A DNA stretch of 64,000 nt, taken from NCBI RefSeq assembly GCF_000208865.1, contig NC_018395.1:3069920-3133919 (forward strand), given 5' to 3'. This DNA comes from Neospora caninum Liverpool. Taxonomy: Eukaryota; Apicomplexa; Conoidasida; Eucoccidiorida; Sarcocystidae. Below, one piece after another: positions 3,290-40,537 of the stretch (position 1 is the stretch's first letter; each line of letters opens with the position of its first letter). The notes beneath the pieces were generated by a model. The model did not search any database, was not told the origin of the DNA, and saw nothing but the letters and a program-made list of their open reading frames with translations. Position numbers and translations under genes: made by a program.

Positions 3290-4375
3290 GTGTCTGTATG
3301 TCGATGTCTGTGTCTCCATCCTTATTTGTATGCGTATTCCCATCAACGTATGTGTATGTGTAGGTCTTGAGTGTTGCTGCGTCCTGCTCCTTTGTCTCTG
3401 CATTGTGGCGTCTGTGTTTCACACTTTTTCCACGTCTTTGCGTTTGCGTTCCCATGTTCTGGAGGGTGGCTGTAAGCGCCTTCGCCCACTTCCGCAATTA
3501 GGTTCTTCCTGGTGTCTCTGCGTCGCGGAGCACTCCCGTAGCGCGCGTCTTGCCTCTCTGCCTGTGCGTTGGTCCTTCAGTTGCAGGATTGAACATTGGC
3601 ACTATCGTGGGCCACCAGCTAGCATGCACGTTCTTGGGGGCGCTCCTGCCGCTCGCCGCCTCAGGGCCTTCGGCGTCTGTCGGCGGCTTCGTCTCGCATT
3701 CTTCGTCGCCGGGCGTCGGCAGCCACTCTAGCGGTGGAGTGCAGTCTGTGCGTGCTGAGCTGCTCATGGAGCTCTTTGCGCTGGGTTTGGGGATTGTCTG
3801 GGACTGTGCCTGTCTCTTTAGTCGCGCCATCTCGGCCCTCTTGGACGACTACGTTCCGCGAAGCCTCACGGCCAAGTTGAGCACAAACAACGGAACCGGC
3901 ACGGAGGCATTGTTGCCCGACGAGCTCCTTCTCTGTCAACTCATGGCTGCAATGTTCGCCTTCACGCTGCGGCCGCAGTGGAGCGCATGCAGTTCGCTCA
4001 TTCTCACCCGCCTCGCGCGCACGAACGTCCCGCTCTTTGTCAAAGTTCTGGGCAGAGCTGCCGGGTGCGTGACAAGACAGCGCCTTCTTTCTGGCGGCTG
4101 TAGACGCATCCTTCTAGGGGTTTCACGCCGCTCAGAGAACCGGGGGGGATTACCACCCCCACCGACCGTTACCCAATATGCCTTCATTCGAAGATGTTTA
4201 GAGGTGGAAAGCATATACGTAGTTGAACGTCAAAAGCGATACGTCGTGCTCACGCGTTTGCATGTGCGTGCATACGCCTGTATGTACATGCACGCATTTG
4301 TATGGAAATGATCCTAGCGTGATCCATGTACACGTATACAAATCAAATGAACTGTCGCCCATACATACATACTAG

Positions 4376-4406
<31 letters not shown>

Positions 4407-6225
4407 TCTGTGCATTCACGTGTATAACGTGAGAGACAAAACCGTGTTCCTATGTGTGTGTGTGTGTGTGTTTCCGGAAGCCCTGGAGGCGTTTGTGGTT
4501 CTTTACGTCATTCGATATGTGTCTGGGGGATGTGTGCTCAGGACGGTTGAGTTCGGCTCCGAATATACGGCGGCGGCGTTGCTGACGCTCGTCCAGTTCA
4601 GCGCGCGGATCCCTGAGCTGTCTCTGGAGCATCTCCCAGACATCGTGGAAGCTGTCGTCCGGTGTCTTGACCCCGCAGAGCCTCATCTTCGCCGCCGTGC
4701 GTTGAACGCAGCAACAGCTGCTCTGTTTCACCTTGTTCGTTGTTTCCCGATGGCAACTTTTCACCAACAGACACAGCGCTTCGCTGTCGGCTGCGCAGAT
4801 GGGCTCATCATCCTCTACGACCTGCGCACTGCGACGAAGTGGAAGGTGCTCGAAGGCCACACCGGCGCGGTCAATTGCCTCTCCTTCTCGGACGACGGAT
4901 CGCTCCTCGCGTCCTACTCCAGTGCCGACTGCACAATGCGCCTCTGGCAGGTAGGCCCCACCCTATGCATGCAGAATGCAAGTCAGAAAAGCAAACACAT
5001 CGCTTGATGGGCCTCCCTCTATTTACATATACGTATATATGTTTTTGTGTTTGGTTGCATGCATTCACTTGTATTCGTGTACTGTCAGTTATACTCTAAC
5101 TGCATATATATATATATATATATGAAAACGGTTGCGTTGGGACCCGTGGTCGATATTCAAACTGAGCACCGTTTTGGCATCGCGTTGGGGGAAGGTAGGT
5201 CCACTTCTGTAGAGGTGTAGACACGTGCAACATATATGGATGCACACGCGTTTGCAGGTCTATGTGTGTTTATACTTGCATGCCTACTTCGGAAACATGC
5301 GTGCGCGAATACGTGGATTTGACTACTGATACATTGTGGCAGGCGCGATTAGAGGATGGGACTGCAGTGCAATCTGCAGAGTGTCTTTGAGCTCCAATAT
5401 TTCTCCGAATGTACACCGGTGTCTCACCCTTATTGACGTATACGCTTAGGAGCTTACGTGCGCTAATTTCTAAATTTTTATGCCACAAATGGTTTGTCTT
5501 TTCTCAGGTTTTCTTGTCCTGCGGTGAATCATGGGCATGGACATGGCTGCTACTCAGTGTTTGTCTCTCCAGAGTTTCATTTGGGTGTAACGATTTTTGG
5601 TGTTTGCGTCTGTTCACCGCAGAGTTCATCTTCTGGATTTTTTGGCGGAATTCTTGGCATTTCAGCCAAGTCCCAGAAGGTCATTCAGCTGCCTCCCTGT
5701 CCCAAAAATATTTTCTGGCAGTCCATCCCTTACGTACGTCATCCCGCGCACAAAAACCTAGAGTGATATGTATGTACATGCGTGATCATGTAAATTCATG
5801 TAGATAGGTATGTATGGTCATGTATAGGCAGATGACAGTAATATGGATACTCATGCATACGCGTATATATATATATATATATATATGAACGCATGTATCC
5901 AGCTTTATGCAATCATATCCATATGCATAAACGTATTGAACAGCCGAGTTAGAAAGAGTCAGGGTGTGTTGACCTTTCGGCAATCATCCATTTGTTGCGG
6001 TTCTCCTCTTCACTTTGCGTTTTTTCTTGTTTCATTCCTAACCGTATTGACCAAGCCGAGATGACCTGCTCACACACATCCAAGCCACTGCGTTTTACCT
6101 AGTTCCACGGTTTCCCCGGTTTGTTTTTTCAGCAATTAGAGACCGTCCGAATGGTGAACAAGTCCAAAACCGAGTGGATGATCCGCCGCGAAGACGGCAA
6201 GGGCTACATGGTCTTGGTTTCGTAA
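1..6225 (+). CDS. WDR7/rabconnectin-3 beta-like HEAT-WD40 protein (5' truncated by window)
   Basis: The gene enters from the left edge already open, so its start lies outside. My model is <3-3117, 3581-4064, 4542-4950, 5623-5733 and 6133-6225 (TAA); reading phase agrees at every junction, giving about 1,400 residues here. The first exon is low complexity, rich in Ser, Ala and Arg, with Gln/His-rich stretches near 1180-1260 and 1450-1520. Exons 2-3 encode helical HEAT-like repeats, then a WD40 repeat (4780-4950) containing the motifs FAVGCADG, LEGHTGAVNC and MRLW. A Gly/Phe-rich segment and a short tail ending in YMVLVS follow. HEAT-like repeats followed by a C-terminal WD40 half match WDR7, which partners DMXL/rabconnectin-3 alpha in V-ATPase assembly on endomembranes. 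That role is inferred from the family. Another large WD40 scaffold is possible. In-frame introns inside the long first exon cannot be excluded, and 3587 is an alternative acceptor for exon 2. Confidence 0.7.
3254..3284. repeat. (TA)n microsatellite in intron
   Basis: Uninterrupted AT dinucleotide tract inside the first intron (3118-3580) of the WDR7-like gene. It is open in one reading frame and would be translated as a Tyr-Ile run if the intron were missed. Confidence 0.95.
4376..4402. repeat. (TA)n microsatellite in intron
   Basis: AT dinucleotide tract within intron 4065-4541 of the WDR7-like gene; a short (TG)n tract follows at about 4453-4470. Confidence 0.95.
5104..5123. repeat. (TA)n microsatellite in intron
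   Basis: AT dinucleotide tract within intron 4951-5622 of the WDR7-like gene. Confidence 0.9.
5863..5886. repeat. (TA)n microsatellite in intron
   Basis: AT dinucleotide tract within intron 5734-6132 of the WDR7-like gene. Confidence 0.9.
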
Positions 6226-8697: not shown

Positions 8698-11484
8698 ATG
8701 CAGGCCAATTGCGCAGAGGTGATTTTGCCATCGCTCTCTCTCCCTCTGGCGTACGTGAAGTGCAGTTTACGGTGTATCCTTCATACTCTCCTCTTTTGTC
8801 GACAGAAGGGCCGACCTTTTAGTTCGTCGGATTCAGAACTGTCACACAGACAACTGGGTTGCGGTGCGGGAATATTCGGTGGAGCACATACGCCTCAGCT
8901 CGTGACAGCGGAGCCCCTTAGTGTCGCGTTTTTCAAATGTGGGGATGAAGAAGCCGAACGCGAACTCGAAACCAAAATCGTTGGATTCACAAGTAAGACA
9001 AGAGGGTAGCACAGCTGTTAACGAGTCAAGGACTTCGAGGGATAGAGCCCCGGCCAGATACAGAGGCAATTGTACGCTTGCATACATACACATGCCTACG
9101 TGTTTTGATTTTTGCATGTTTATGAGATAGGCAGCTCGAGCGCGGTACCCACGAAAAGCAAAACCGCTACGGTGCTCTACGGTCACGTACGAACACATTT
9201 GAAACTGGACTGTGGTTTATGTGATGCGTTTAACCACCGTCTGTAAGATCATGCTCACTCCCATTCCTGCTATATCTGTCACTCAGGCATGGTTTTTTGC
9301 TTTGCCCCTGTTCCACTCTCCAAGATATATTCTACGTCGTTGTTCCTCAGCACGCCATCTCCTTCTAGCTGTGTCGTTTGCTGTTATTCTCAGAAATGCT
9401 AGAGAGAGGGACGTGCAATACTGCACAGCTCTGTGTCTCTTTTTATCACTTGCGTTCGCGCGAGAGAGTGTTGGGGCTGTTTCAGCCTGCCGATGAAAAG
9501 ATCTTTTTTGAAAGGTGGGTTCTCTCCGTCTCTCTCTTTCACCACGAGAATCTCGATTCTCCTTCTCAATTGCCAAAAACGTGGAAGCTCGGAGTCAGCG
9601 GACTTCCTGTTTCTACAACTGTACGCCAAGTAAACGGGACTCTTGCTGAAGAATCTTCTCGCTTTAGCGCCGCAGACCACCATGTCCCAGCGGACCGCCA
9701 AACCGATCTTGACTCACGGGGAGTGGACGCTCCGTCGGGTGTATGTGCACCTCCCGGTTCTGCAGTCTCGAGCGGAGGAGAGACGTCGACCACTGGAGTC
9801 AGTCTGTGTTTACCAGGACAGTCGCCTTCGACAGAAGCAGGCTGTTTGCGGCTTTTCGCTTTGCCTTCGCGATCAACAGAGCCAGCCTCTCTCGGCTTTT
9901 GTTCTGATGGGCAACCTACCTTACGGGCTGCTCGTCAGCAGGAAGATATGCGAGACTCTTGGTTACGCATGACGCATGGCATGTCTGACGAACACGATGC
10001 CGTCAAAGAAAACAAAGGGCGGCAACAGTTCGTAGTGGCAGGACCAAGCATTGAAAGCAGCAAGGGGACAGGAGAGGTGCAAGAAGCCGTGAACGTGACA
10101 GGGGATTATATCCGAGAGCTGTCGCATGTAGAGACACAAGAATTTGAGCAACGTGTATCGCCTTCTTATTCGTATTCCCGCTCTCTACCTTTGTCCGCAT
10201 CTTTCACCCAGAGTCACCGTGTTGTCTGCTCACTGATGGGTGTAGACGATTCAGTAGGAGGGGCTAATGCAGCAGGCGTAATTAAGGGGGTTCGAAGGGG
10301 GGAGTCCAGCAACGGTATGCATGGACAACTATCTATTGGAAACGGTGCTAACAGGAGTGTCGGTGCGGAGGAGAGACGTGCAGATGCTCGTGTTTATGGC
10401 CTGGACACTCCCCTTTTTCCTTCACCTGCTGAGTCTCGGTGGAGCCGCCAGGTAGAGGAGAGAGTCCATGGCAGTTCGACCTGTTTTTTCCAGAAAAGCG
10501 AAAACGTGGAAAAGCAGTTGAAGCTGAAAACTGAAACACGATGGCTGAGTAGACCACTAGATAATTTGCGTGTGCAGAGCCCTGGGTTTTCTTCGAGAAG
10601 TGACATATTGATTGAAAGAGGAACTGAACAAGAACACCAGCAAGTTATTGAGCATCAGCGCCCCCAGTCGAAGGCCGTTCATGACGAAACGGGCGCTGAG
10701 GATGTGTGGAGTGCGCGCCTGAACCACAGGGCCCATTTGGAGCAGGATGCGGGAAGAAAAGGGAAGCAGACAAAGCGGTGTTCACGATTTTCGTCTTCCT
10801 CCTGGATGTTGCAAGAGGAACGAGCAGCTCAACGCTGCGTAGAAAGGGCCGTGAGGCAGGCCATGATGAAGGTCATTCAGGTGACCACAGAAAAACAATG
10901 GCATCTCCCACCTCCTTCGCCCGAAAATCGATGTGAGAGTTCAATGTACAGGTACGATGTGAGAGTCGCCATCGCCAGAAAGAGCACAATACGTCTATGA
11001 ATTTTGTGCAGCTAGATATCTGGGAACGTACATACGAGTTTCTCGAGGGGAGGCGGGACGAGAACTGTATTCAACTGTTCACACAAAACAGTGAAGTTTT
11101 GATATACAAGCTCTTCTACTCGTGCAACGAACCCAAATATGGGGTCACTTTTTCGAATTCGCTCTATGTGGACAAAAGTAGATCTATGAACTTATATAGA
11201 GCTCTTCATCCAGGAGAATGGCAGTAACACTCGTTCGCTGCAGGCCTTTCCAACCATGGTTCTTATTCACTCTGTCCCTTCGTTAAGCTAGATATATGTA
11301 CGTAGACGAAGCTCTCCACTTTTTCGTTTGTGTACCAATGCATGGCTTGCGGTGCACATTTTTTTTCAGATTTGAGATCAACTTCAGCGGACCGTTCACC
11401 GTTTCTGCTGACCACGGATGGCACCTACACTTACCTGCAGCTCTGCGCTCCGCCTACAGCCGCCACATGCCGTACCTGACATAA
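8698..11484 (+). CDS. ATG101: ATG101-like HORMA autophagy protein with large internal insertion
   Basis: Three exons fit with exact phase: 8698-8992, 9394-10951 and 11370-11484, giving 655 residues (an in-frame upstream ATG lies at 8677). Exon 1 carries the ATG101 N-terminus (NCAEV, then LRCILHTLLFCR) and a strand block ending ELETKIVGF. Exon 2 opens with the next HORMA block (LCVSFYHLR, then FFERWVLSVSLF). After about 420 low-complexity residues comes the C-terminal helix ending WHLPPPSP, completed across the last intron by MYRFEINFSGPF. Known ATG101 has the same order in about 218 residues, and I align it from memory of the human protein. It is a scaffold that binds ATG13 in the ATG1/ULK1 complex. 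The Trp of the WF-finger is replaced (LGLF), while the Phe is kept. Whether the insertion contains unrecognised in-frame introns is unknown, and the autophagy role is inferred. Confidence 0.8.
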
Positions 11485-13981: not shown

Positions 13982-30577
<16,596 letters not shown>

Positions 30578-36442: not shown

Positions 36443-36788
36443 CCTCCTCTACATCATGTGCATTGAGAATTAGAACCCCAAAGGTTCACGGGAAAATCTT
36501 AGCAGCATGCCGTTCGTCCACGTATAGGTAGTTGAGTTTCTTTGTGAGAAAGTTGATGTTTCTATACTTTCGAAAACAATGCGAAATTGATGTTATATAT
36601 ACACACAGTGTATATACACCAGGAATCCCCATCCTCTCTGCCTCCCTTTCACTTGGAGTTGATGGATGCGCGTTACACCACTACTAGGAAAAGAGTCAAA
36701 CGCCTGTTACTTTCTTCATGCGAAGAACCCAAAAACTGTCGATGTGACTTGCCCGGGGCTTCTGCTCACTTCCCCCCGGTTTCCTCTC

Positions 36789-38804
36789 TTAGTCAACTTC
36801 TTCCACGGTGGGGCCGCCAGAGCCTCCCATGCCTCCAGGCATTCCACCGGGCATTCCACCGGGCATGCCGCCCATGCCTCCAGGCATACCACCCATGCCT
36901 CCAGGCATGCCGCCCATGCCTCCAGGCATGCCACCAGGCATACCGCCTGCTGCTGCCCCTGCCTGGTACAACTTCGTGATAATAGGCGTGCACACCGATT
37001 CGACTTCCTTCTGCTTGGCCTCAAACTCCTCTTTCTCTGCAAGTTGGTTCTTATCCAACCAGTCAAGCGCGTCCTGGATGGCTTTGTTTGCGGTCTCCCT
37101 GTCTTCAGCGGAGATTTTATCCTTAAGCTTTTCGTCGTCCAAGGTCTGTCTCATGTGGTAGCAATAGTTCTCCAAACCGTTCTTTGCTTCCACACGATGC
37201 CTGTTCTGCTCATCCTCGGCCTTGTACTTCTCGGCTTCTTGCACCATACGGTCAATTTCGGACGCGCTAAGACGGCCTTTGTCGTTCGTGATGGTAATTT
37301 GGTTGCTCTTGCCTGTGGATTTATCTTGGGCTGTGACGTTCATGATACCGTTGGCATCAATATCGAAGGTAACTTCGATCTGGGGAACACCGCGTGGCGC
37401 AGGTGGGATACCATCCAAATGGAACTTGCCAAGGAGATTGTTGTCCTTTGTCATCGCACGCTCACCTTCGTACACCTGAATCAACACTCCTGGCTGGTTA
37501 TCGGCGTAGGTGGTGAAGGTCTGCGACTTCTTGGTGGGGATGGTCGTGTTTCTCTCGATCAACTTCGTCATGACACCACCAGCAGTCTCCAGTCCGAGGG
37601 AGAGGGGGGCAACATCGAGAAGAAGCAAGTCTTGCACTTGGGAGCTGGTAACTCCCTTCAAAATAGCTGCCTGAACAGCGGCGCCATACGCAACCGCCTC
37701 GTCGGGGTTGATGGACCTGCAGGGCTCCTTTCCGTTGAAGAAGTCGGTGATGAGCTGCTGGATCTTGGGAATACGGGTCGACCCGCCAACCAACACAACC
37801 TCGCTGACCGAGCGCTTGTCAATGCCAGAATCCTTCAGGACCTTTTCGACTGGCAGCAGGGAGTTGCGGAAGTAATCCATGCAAAGCTCCTCGAAGCGTG
37901 CACGAGAGATGGACACAGAGTAGTCAATGCCTTCGAAGAGAGAATCGATTTCGATGGTTGCCTGAGTGCTGCTGGAGAGAGTTCTCTTGGTGCGCTCGCA
38001 TTGGGTACGCAGGCGGCGAAGGGCGCGGCTGTTGGTGCTGATATCCTTGCCGCGGTTCTTGCGCTTGAAGTCCTGGACGCAGAAATCCACCAGGCGGTTA
38101 TCGAAATCTTCTCCACCAAGGTGAGTGTCTCCTGCTGTTGCCTTCACTTCAAAGATACCGTCTTCAATTGTCAGCAACGACACATCGAAAGTACCGCCAC
38201 CCATGTCGAAGATGAGGACGTTCATCTCTCCGCAGCCTTTCTTGTCCAGACCGTACGCGATGGCAGCCGCGGTAGGCTCGTTGATGATACGCAGGACACT
38301 GAGGCCTGCAATAGTACCAGCATCCTTGGTCGCCTGACGCTGCGAGTCGTTGAAGTAGGCGGGCACCGTAATGACGGCTTCCTTGACATCCTTCCCCAAG
38401 TACGCTTCCGCGATTTCCTTCATTTTGCCCAACACCATGGCTGAAACCTCTTCCGGGTGGAACGTCTTTTTCTCCCCCTGGTAAGTAACTTCAATCAGCG
38501 GCTTGTCTCCCGGACCAGCAATGACCTTGAATGGCCAATGCTTCATGTCCGACTGCACGGACGGGTCATCAAACTTGCGACCGATCAGGCGCTTGGCATC
38601 GAAAATAGTGTTTTCCGGGTTGCGTGCCACTTGGTTCTTGGCAGCATCACCGACAAGTCTCTCCGTGTCAGTAAACGCAACGTAGGACGGGGTCGTCCTG
38701 TTCCCCTGGTCATTGGCGATAATTTCCACGGCATCGTTCTTCCACACACCTACGCAAGAGTAGGTGGTGCCAAGGTCGATACCCACAGCAGGAGAATCCG
38801 CCAT
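36789..38804 (-). CDS. HSP70: Cytosolic heat shock protein 70
   Basis: Intronless, 671 residues. The start [17 protein letters not shown] at 38804 matches eukaryotic Hsp70. The actin-like ATPase domain carries [29 protein letters not shown] and [13 protein letters not shown]. The substrate domain and lid follow, then a Gly-Met-Pro repeat tail ending GPTVEEVD. The EEVD end binds TPR co-chaperones and marks the cytosolic/nuclear form rather than BiP or the mitochondrial type. The frame stays open upstream of the ATG, but that stretch is a Phe/Ser-encoding pyrimidine-rich leader and I treat it as 5' UTR. It refolds proteins with Hsp40 and nucleotide-exchange partners, and in coccidians it is stress and bradyzoite associated. 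Confidence 0.98.
36804..36957 (-). repeat. GGMP-type tandem repeat in the Hsp70 tail
   Basis: Imperfect tandem units of [11 protein letters not shown] encoded by near-identical DNA units. Such tails are typical of apicomplexan cytosolic Hsp70 and often vary in copy number. Confidence 0.9.
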
Positions 38805-40537
38805 TTTTTCTTCTGCGGGGAGAGACAGGAGACTACAAGATGATACAAAAAAGAAAAAGGTGGAGTGGGATGAAAAAAAAGTTGGGAGAAAAAACACTGA
38901 CTTTTCAGTCTGTTTTCAGACTGAGCTGCACCGCACCGGACATTCCTCTCCAAAAGATGAAATGCGGGGCGGGTGATTTGGACACAACCCTATGACTCGT
39001 ACCGAACAGCACACCCGCGCAGCAGCAGGGGATGGTGAACGACGAGTAGGACGGTGTGTGGTATCGCACAGGACGGACGGTAGGTGCTTCTCCGTGTACT
39101 CTTTTGGGGAAGCAACGCGGCGCAAAAGCTCTCTGTGAAAGCAAAGGCGATTCTTACAACGTTCTTGTTTCTTTTCCGCAGCCTCTTGTTGCCAACACAC
39201 AATGTGCAACTACACAATCTACACACATTTCCTCTCTAGTGGCGCTTTGAGCACCGTGGACTACAACAGTTCATCGTGAAGAGCGCCGGCGTCGCACGTG
39301 GGGGGAGGAGAGCAGGATGACGCAAATCTTCGGGTGGGAGGGGCGGGAGTCTAGTCACGTTGTCAAGCAAGCATCCCCGCAACAAGAGGCTGGCGTTGCT
39401 CGCTCGGTCTTAGCATCCTGCCTCTCTCGTCGTGGCCGCTGCCGATAACGGCTGTTTTGTGTTTCCCCCGTCGGAGGGGTTGCAGGGGGGGAGCGGCGGA
39501 CGTTTCCACTGGCAACAACCTGCAAATGCGTTGTGCGCGAGCCTGTCGGCGAAACGCGCCCCTCACAGAAACGGGACGGCTGTTTTGCTTTGTTGACCTA
39601 TCTCCATGAAAGCAGTGGGCAATGGAAAGAATCAGTGGCAGGGGTGATGTTTCGCTGTAAGCGCATGTAACTAACTCGAATTCTCGGTTTGTAAGGGGCT
39701 GACGAAGCAGTCAGAAGACGCTGGGGAACGACAAATTTTGTTTCCCTCAGTAATCGTCGACCATCCACAGCGGTGGGACGGGGCATGTCCGCATCTGGAG
39801 AAGCGATGGCATATTTGTCCGAATCGGCCAGCGACGGCAGTAATGCGTGTAACGTTGTAACCGAATAGTGGCTTCAATGCGAGGGACCGTTTGTAGCGTC
39901 ACACGCAAGATATCTGGGATAGAAGGGAAGCTGGATTCTGCCCGAAAGACGAACGAAACGGATGGTCAGGGGTCCGGACGTGCACGGCAATACTGACCCT
40001 TTTTCTGGCGCAGCACTCTACAGTCTCACACACAGTGGATGAAAACCGGCTACCGATAGCGGAATAATGTTGTGGGGTCAGACTCAACTGTCGTGGCCAT
40101 TAGCCCGTTTTCACGTAGAAAGCTGTTTTATTTAGAAGCGGAGACCCAACAACAGTATAATCTAGCACGTTCACGCGATTTGTGCTCTCGAGTTTGACCA
40201 ACTTCGATGCCCACGTATGCTCCCGCCCGATACAGTGCAAGTCGACGAGGTCGTCTCCGCACTATCGCGAAGACGCACATTCCAACGTGGTACGGCTGAT
40301 ACGTTTTGTACGAAGTGTGCGTGCTCCAACTCCCGATGCTGCGTTAAATCCAAACGAACGCGTATTTTAGATCACTGGTTTGTGTATACCAGTGTCGCTT
40401 CTGATGTTCCGGAAGTGTTGAACATGACGAGACACGGCGTCGTGGTTATGTGCTCTGATCAAAAATATAGTGCGAAGTGGCCCGTTAGGTGCTCGTTCAC
40501 TCAGTGGTAGACCAGGAGAAGTAGGTCAGACACAGCA
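38805..40537. other. Hsp70 5' UTR/promoter region and intergenic DNA
   Basis: Pyrimidine-rich leader of Hsp70 on the minus strand (about 38805-38900), then sequence with only short ORFs. I could not pick a clear heat-shock element by eye. The rest probably holds the 3' UTR of the 83-residue minus-strand gene. Confidence 0.5.

Follow-up and report, generated by a model that had tools for sequence, protein, structure and literature searches.

A probable ATG101 orthologue with a long, predicted disordered insertion in its HORMA domain in Neospora caninum

The gene at positions 8698 to 11484 of a 64,000-nucleotide stretch of the Neospora caninum Liverpool genome (contig NC_018395.1; genome of 57.5 Mb in 14 contigs) is probably the N. 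caninum orthologue of ATG101, a HORMA scaffold protein acting, as ATG101 does elsewhere, where autophagosomes start. Coordinates refer to this stretch, hereafter the window, unless a contig is named. The gene family is known; the Neospora version is altered and carries a long disordered insertion. When the joined protein was compared with 24,736 Pfam models (hmmscan, E value of 10), ATG101 (PF07855) was the only family listed, with 62.3 bits and E 6.4e-17 against a curated family cut-off of 26.5 bits, and no match to ATG13 (PF10033) was found. The start of exon 2 alone scored 27.2 bits (E 4e-6, profile positions 76–117), and exon 1 alone scored 19.7 bits (E 8.3e-4, profile positions 7–62), under the cut-off. 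A search of all six frames of the whole genome with PF07855 gave a single match at E <=0.001 (two candidates scored). This match lies in the gene described here and, at 25.6 bits, falls just short of the cut-off. The identity as ATG101, proposed in a preliminary description of the window, is borne out by the score of the joined protein, by the colinear order of its blocks and by the existence of coccidian orthologues.

A protein search retrieved four proteins, from N. caninum (556 aa), Hammondia hammondi (676 aa), Toxoplasma gondii (675 aa) and Cystoisospora suis (605 aa), all of which match PF07855; a search with a profile of the core added two unnamed fragments of coccidian type. In UniRef the Cystoisospora entry is named Autophagy-related protein 101, the name of the Toxoplasma entry begins 'Autophagy-related prote', and the Neospora and Hammondia entries are hypothetical. 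The insertion had been expected to hide the gene from ordinary searches. This was not the case, as shown by the Pfam score, which lies 36 bits over the cut-off, by the four matching coccidian proteins and by the UniRef name of the Cystoisospora entry. Automatic annotation has already given the protein its label in relatives of Neospora. It is not named in the literature searched, the main texts of which contained none of TGME49_273790, TGGT1_273790, TGVEG_273790, TgATG101 or NcATG101. Among the 120 of 467 ATG101-family matches listed, many of them nameless, no apicomplexan name was found. Neospora and Toxoplasma share 121 of 150 residues in block 1–150 and 77 of 91 in block 565–655. Almost no change is seen in residues 1–38 (38/38 identical) and 565–607 (41/43), the segments containing helices alphaA and alphaC.

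The three exons, when joined, give 655 open codons without internal stops, from the ATG at 8698 to the TAA at 11482–11484. All splice sites are canonical (in order, with the boundary marked by a slash: TTCACAA/gtaaga, ttctcag/AAATG, TGTACAG/gtacga, tttcag/ATTTG), and the aligned Hammondia and Toxoplasma proteins span both junctions without gaps. Together these observations confirm the three-exon model that had been proposed. The features of the gene are as follows.

8698..8992, forward strand: exon 1, residues 1–98, encoding the HORMA domain's N-terminal strand and its helix alphaA, followed by a loop of variable sequence and by short strands
8812..8901, forward strand: variable loop, residues 39–68, at the approximate position of the human ATG101 G43–Y45 contact with the ATG9A tail
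8993..9393, forward strand: intron 1 (gt...ag), junction spanned by the Hammondia and Toxoplasma proteins
9394..10951, forward strand: exon 2, encoding HORMA strands with the finger, then the disordered insertion and then helix alphaC
9465..9482, forward strand: finger loop RVLGLF, residues 123–128, at the position of the WF finger of human ATG101
9549..10790, forward strand: insertion, residues 151–564 (414 residues), predicted disordered
10089..10166, forward strand: conserved island, residues 331–356 (VNVTGDYIRELSHVETQEFEQRVSPS), inside the insertion; candidate partner-binding motif
10794..10919, forward strand: helix alphaC block, residues 566–607, placed by identity to Toxoplasma, alignment and the structure model
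10952..11369, forward strand: intron 2 (gt...ag), junction spanned by the Hammondia and Toxoplasma proteins
11370..11484, forward strand: exon 3, with the last HORMA strand (MYRFEINF crosses the junction), the C-terminal helix and the stop codon

The public N. caninum protein starts at Met100, without exon 1, and from there on agrees with the model at every residue. The possibility that exon 1 is spurious, raised by its absence from this protein, was rejected, as the exon is present in Hammondia, Toxoplasma and Cystoisospora, with whose proteins it is colinear. The public record is misannotated at its 5' end. At the other end of the gene, the public C. suis model stops exactly at the exon 2/3 boundary (CMYR), indicating that exon 3 was probably missed.

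AlphaFold2 (AF2) was run on the Toxoplasma orthologue with an alignment that included 14 canonical ATG101 rows. A HORMA fold was predicted that, by structure comparison, resembled ATG101 more than Mad2, Rev7 or HORMAD, with the exon 3 block at lower confidence (block means of the predicted local distance difference test, pLDDT, of 37–67). Several results weigh against the reading as an ATG101 orthologue acting at the start of autophagy. This model is poor overall (mean pLDDT 45.8, predicted template modelling score 0.41) and its Foldseek superposition on known structures is moderate (template modelling scores by target of 0.46–0.53 and root mean square deviations of 4.5–8.1 for the 15 best). 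When the alignment was reduced to the four coccidian rows, pLDDT was <50 at every one of the 675 residues; as no confident model was obtained without the canonical rows, the predicted fold is no independent proof. No PDB chain was matched at E <=10 by a profile of the four coccidian cores, nor by a sequence search with the full protein. The C-terminal block alone gave no ATG101 match in the Pfam scan, so that its assignment rests on the alignment and the fold model. The loop used by human ATG101 to contact the ATG9 tail is not conserved in Neospora. Finally, six-frame searches of the genome at E <=10 did not detect ATG13 (PF10033), the C-terminal domain of ATG11 (PF10377) or the C-terminal MIT domains of ATG1 (PF12063, PF21127), although these searches proceeded exon by exon and the control genomes offered no usable positive control, so that absence is not established.

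The insertion is close in size to the ~420 residues first described, at 414 residues, with boundaries at 151 and 564 in place of ~152 and ~572; it precedes helix alphaC and not, as had been stated, the C-terminal helix. Identity to Toxoplasma within it is 180 of 413 aligned residues, with 22 further columns being gaps, compared with 121 of 150 in the block before it. Disorder-promoting residues make up 59 % of the insertion and 52 % of the core, and the block means of pLDDT for the insertion in the Toxoplasma model are 26–46. No known domain was detected in it by the Pfam scan at E 10, and no LC3-interacting region-type motif (W/F/Y-x-x-L/I/V) by a motif scan. The conserved island contains a 20-residue window with 19 identities between Neospora and Toxoplasma, a value reached in none of 2000 column shuffles; a weaker window (16/20) starts at residue 255. 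Cystoisospora shows no evident counterpart of the main island. A region so poorly conserved and without a known domain could be an artefact of the gene model, such as an unrecognised intron or an assembly error. This explanation is highly improbable, given that the insertion is a single open stretch within one exon, that the protein models of Neospora, Hammondia, Toxoplasma and Cystoisospora all contain it, with differences in length that stay in register, and that it holds the 19/20 window. A large insertion inside a HORMA domain has been kept across these four genera.

The two loops known to make contacts in human ATG101 are altered. Neospora, Hammondia and Toxoplasma have RVLGLF as the finger sequence and Cystoisospora has KVWGLF, while Trp is present in 14 of 14 canonical rows; the absence of the finger Trp noted earlier thus holds for the first three species. 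The Trp-Phe pair of human-type, membrane-contacting ATG101 was not found in Neospora, this being a functional element and not one that defines the family. The loop exceeds that of the canonical rows by five residues, making residue-by-residue matching uncertain, and the automatic alignment pairs the canonical Trp with the Phe of LGLF. As the loop is still hydrophobic, loss of membrane contact does not follow. In passages of a 2025 preprint (PMC12637519), W110 and F112 of human ATG101 and its C-terminal helix are described as binding membrane together with WIPI proteins, and the finger is read as a membrane-inserting element. The suggestion that the protein kept only a scaffold role is weakened by this reading of the finger, by the Trp of Cystoisospora and by the hydrophobic character of the Neospora loop. 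The C-terminal helix was placed by AF2 at residues 659–670 of the Toxoplasma protein, with low confidence. For ATG9, a section of PMC9931213 reports that the human loop G43–Y45 pairs with the ATG9A tail, that the finger is not needed and that Y45D abolished binding. The corresponding variable loop (residues 39–68) is identical at 15 of 30 positions between Neospora and Toxoplasma and at 3 of 29 between Neospora and Cystoisospora, and it contains no Tyr in Neospora, Hammondia, Toxoplasma or Cystoisospora.

Among possible partners, ATG9 was detected in the genome through four exon matches; no obvious P-x-x-H tail was found at the end of the last open frame matching it (a putative gene model). 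Other HORMA (PF02301) genes, possibly of Mad2 or Hop1 type, were observed at G000:C7:2658819-2659082 (reverse strand) and G000:C11:4006655-4007237 (reverse strand, two exons); in the Pfam scan PF02301 was the sole family listed for the C7 frame and for the first of the two C11 exons. PF04108 (ATG17_like) gave one weak six-frame match, on contig C14 (19.9 bits, E 0.014). Matches to this family occurred in 8 of 14 control genomes, none over the cut-off, indicating that a weak match to this coiled-coil family is not rare. The open frame concerned (G000:C14:5034652-5040553, reverse strand, 1967 residues) aligns to nearly the whole PF04108 profile. A 795-residue piece beginning at a chosen Met scored 26.2 bits (E 7e-6) and a 421-residue domain 29.2 bits (E 8.7e-7, profile positions 7–354 of 355), under the cut-off of 43, and the reversed sequence of the domain had no PF04108 match. 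No further exon could be resolved among the open frames downstream of it. Local alignment with a presumed Arabidopsis ATG11 fragment scored 70 compared with 35 +/- 5 in 500 full shuffles, a score reached by none of the full shuffles and by one of 500 windowed shuffles; BLASTP against the same fragment gave E 0.006 only. Six PDB sequence matches, at E 2.2 to 2.7, were taken as chance. These profile and alignment scores make the C14 gene a candidate ATG11/FIP200 scaffold of Coccidia, a good lead and not a proven member.

The machinery that starts autophagy in coccidians such as Neospora is poorly known. The initiation complex is described as poorly conserved in parasitic protists in a passage of a 2021 review (PMC8161075) and, for T. 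gondii, as yet to be discovered in part of a 2024 paper (PMC11588310); a section of a 2017 study reports Atg101 as not found in the ciliates analysed there (PMC5244887). For Plasmodium, passages of a 2013 review (PMC3962217) and a 2018 paper (PMC6170468) refer to Atg101 and FIP200 and treat Atg13 as missing or presumably missing. The statement that ATG13 and ATG101 are both regarded as missing in Apicomplexa was only half right.

If the protein acts as ATG101, its HORMA face would pair with another protein, either a highly diverged ATG13 or a second ATG101 copy, its C-terminal helix and hydrophobic finger may touch the membrane, and the insertion would carry docking motifs. It would work beside ATG9 and possibly beside the candidate ATG11/FIP200-like protein. 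A rival explanation is that ATG13 was lost and that ATG101 does both jobs, with a self-pairing HORMA domain and an insertion replacing the disordered ATG13 tail that binds FIP200 and the kinase. It draws on the long disordered region with a conserved island that the HORMA domain itself holds and on the failure to detect ATG13, but such non-detection carries little weight, Cystoisospora lacks an evident island and Toxoplasma proteins commonly have long disordered insertions; we regard it as unlikely. A wider proposal, that Coccidia keep a rebuilt starting complex missed by surveys and consisting of ATG9, an ATG11/FIP200-like scaffold and an ATG101 with the insertion in place of the lost ATG13 tail, is a speculative one to which we give the same low likelihood. 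If true, one HORMA protein would do the work of two in other eukaryotes.

The orthologue could also have left autophagy for another membrane process, for example one linked to the apicoplast, where, according to part of PMC8161075, several apicomplexan ATG proteins work: ATG8, ATG4, ATG7, ATG18 and VPS34 are placed there in apicoplast biogenesis, in which ATG9 takes no part. The undetected ATG13 and ATG1 C-terminal domains and the alteration of both known contact loops would agree with such a change. However, ATG9 is present in the genome and an ATG11/FIP200-like candidate exists, so that a starting complex may remain, and we consider repurposing quite unlikely. An ATG101 orthologue together with a plausible ATG11/FIP200-like protein turns the gap at initiation into genes to tag, pull down and remove. 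With its altered loops and insertion, an undetected ATG13 and a candidate ATG11/FIP200, ATG101 is a useful entry point to how coccidians begin autophagy.

Elsewhere in the window, a frame with a WD40 repeat (4351–5007, forward strand; PF00400, 50 bits), part of a beta-propeller protein, lies upstream of ATG101, and long open frames of 1878, 593 and 708 codons occur at 23230–28866 (forward strand) and 36663–38915 (both strands).

Comparison with known proteins places the gene as follows. The orthologues Toxoplasma gondii TGPRC2_273790, Hammondia hammondi HHA_273790 and Cystoisospora suis CSUI_000729 share the insertion point and the PF07855 label with Neospora, while the sequence of the insertion drifts fast among them. 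Human ATG101 (PDB 4wzg, 5xuy, 5c50 and 8do8) belongs to the same Pfam family and is the best structural match, and the Neospora blocks are colinear with it from the N-terminal strand to the C-terminal helix, at a core identity of 24 %. Neospora differs from it by the 414-residue insertion before alphaC, a replaced finger Trp, a longer finger loop, fewer residues between alphaC and the last strand and a non-conserved ATG9-contact loop. Fission yeast Atg101 (PDB 4yk8_A) shows 15 % identity over the aligned part, and its chain, at 162 to 187 residues, leaves no room for an insertion comparable in size to that of Neospora. ATG13, like Neospora ATG101, has a single HORMA domain and a long disordered region; in ATG13, however, the disordered part follows the HORMA domain, whereas in Neospora it lies within a HORMA domain whose profile match is to ATG101 only.
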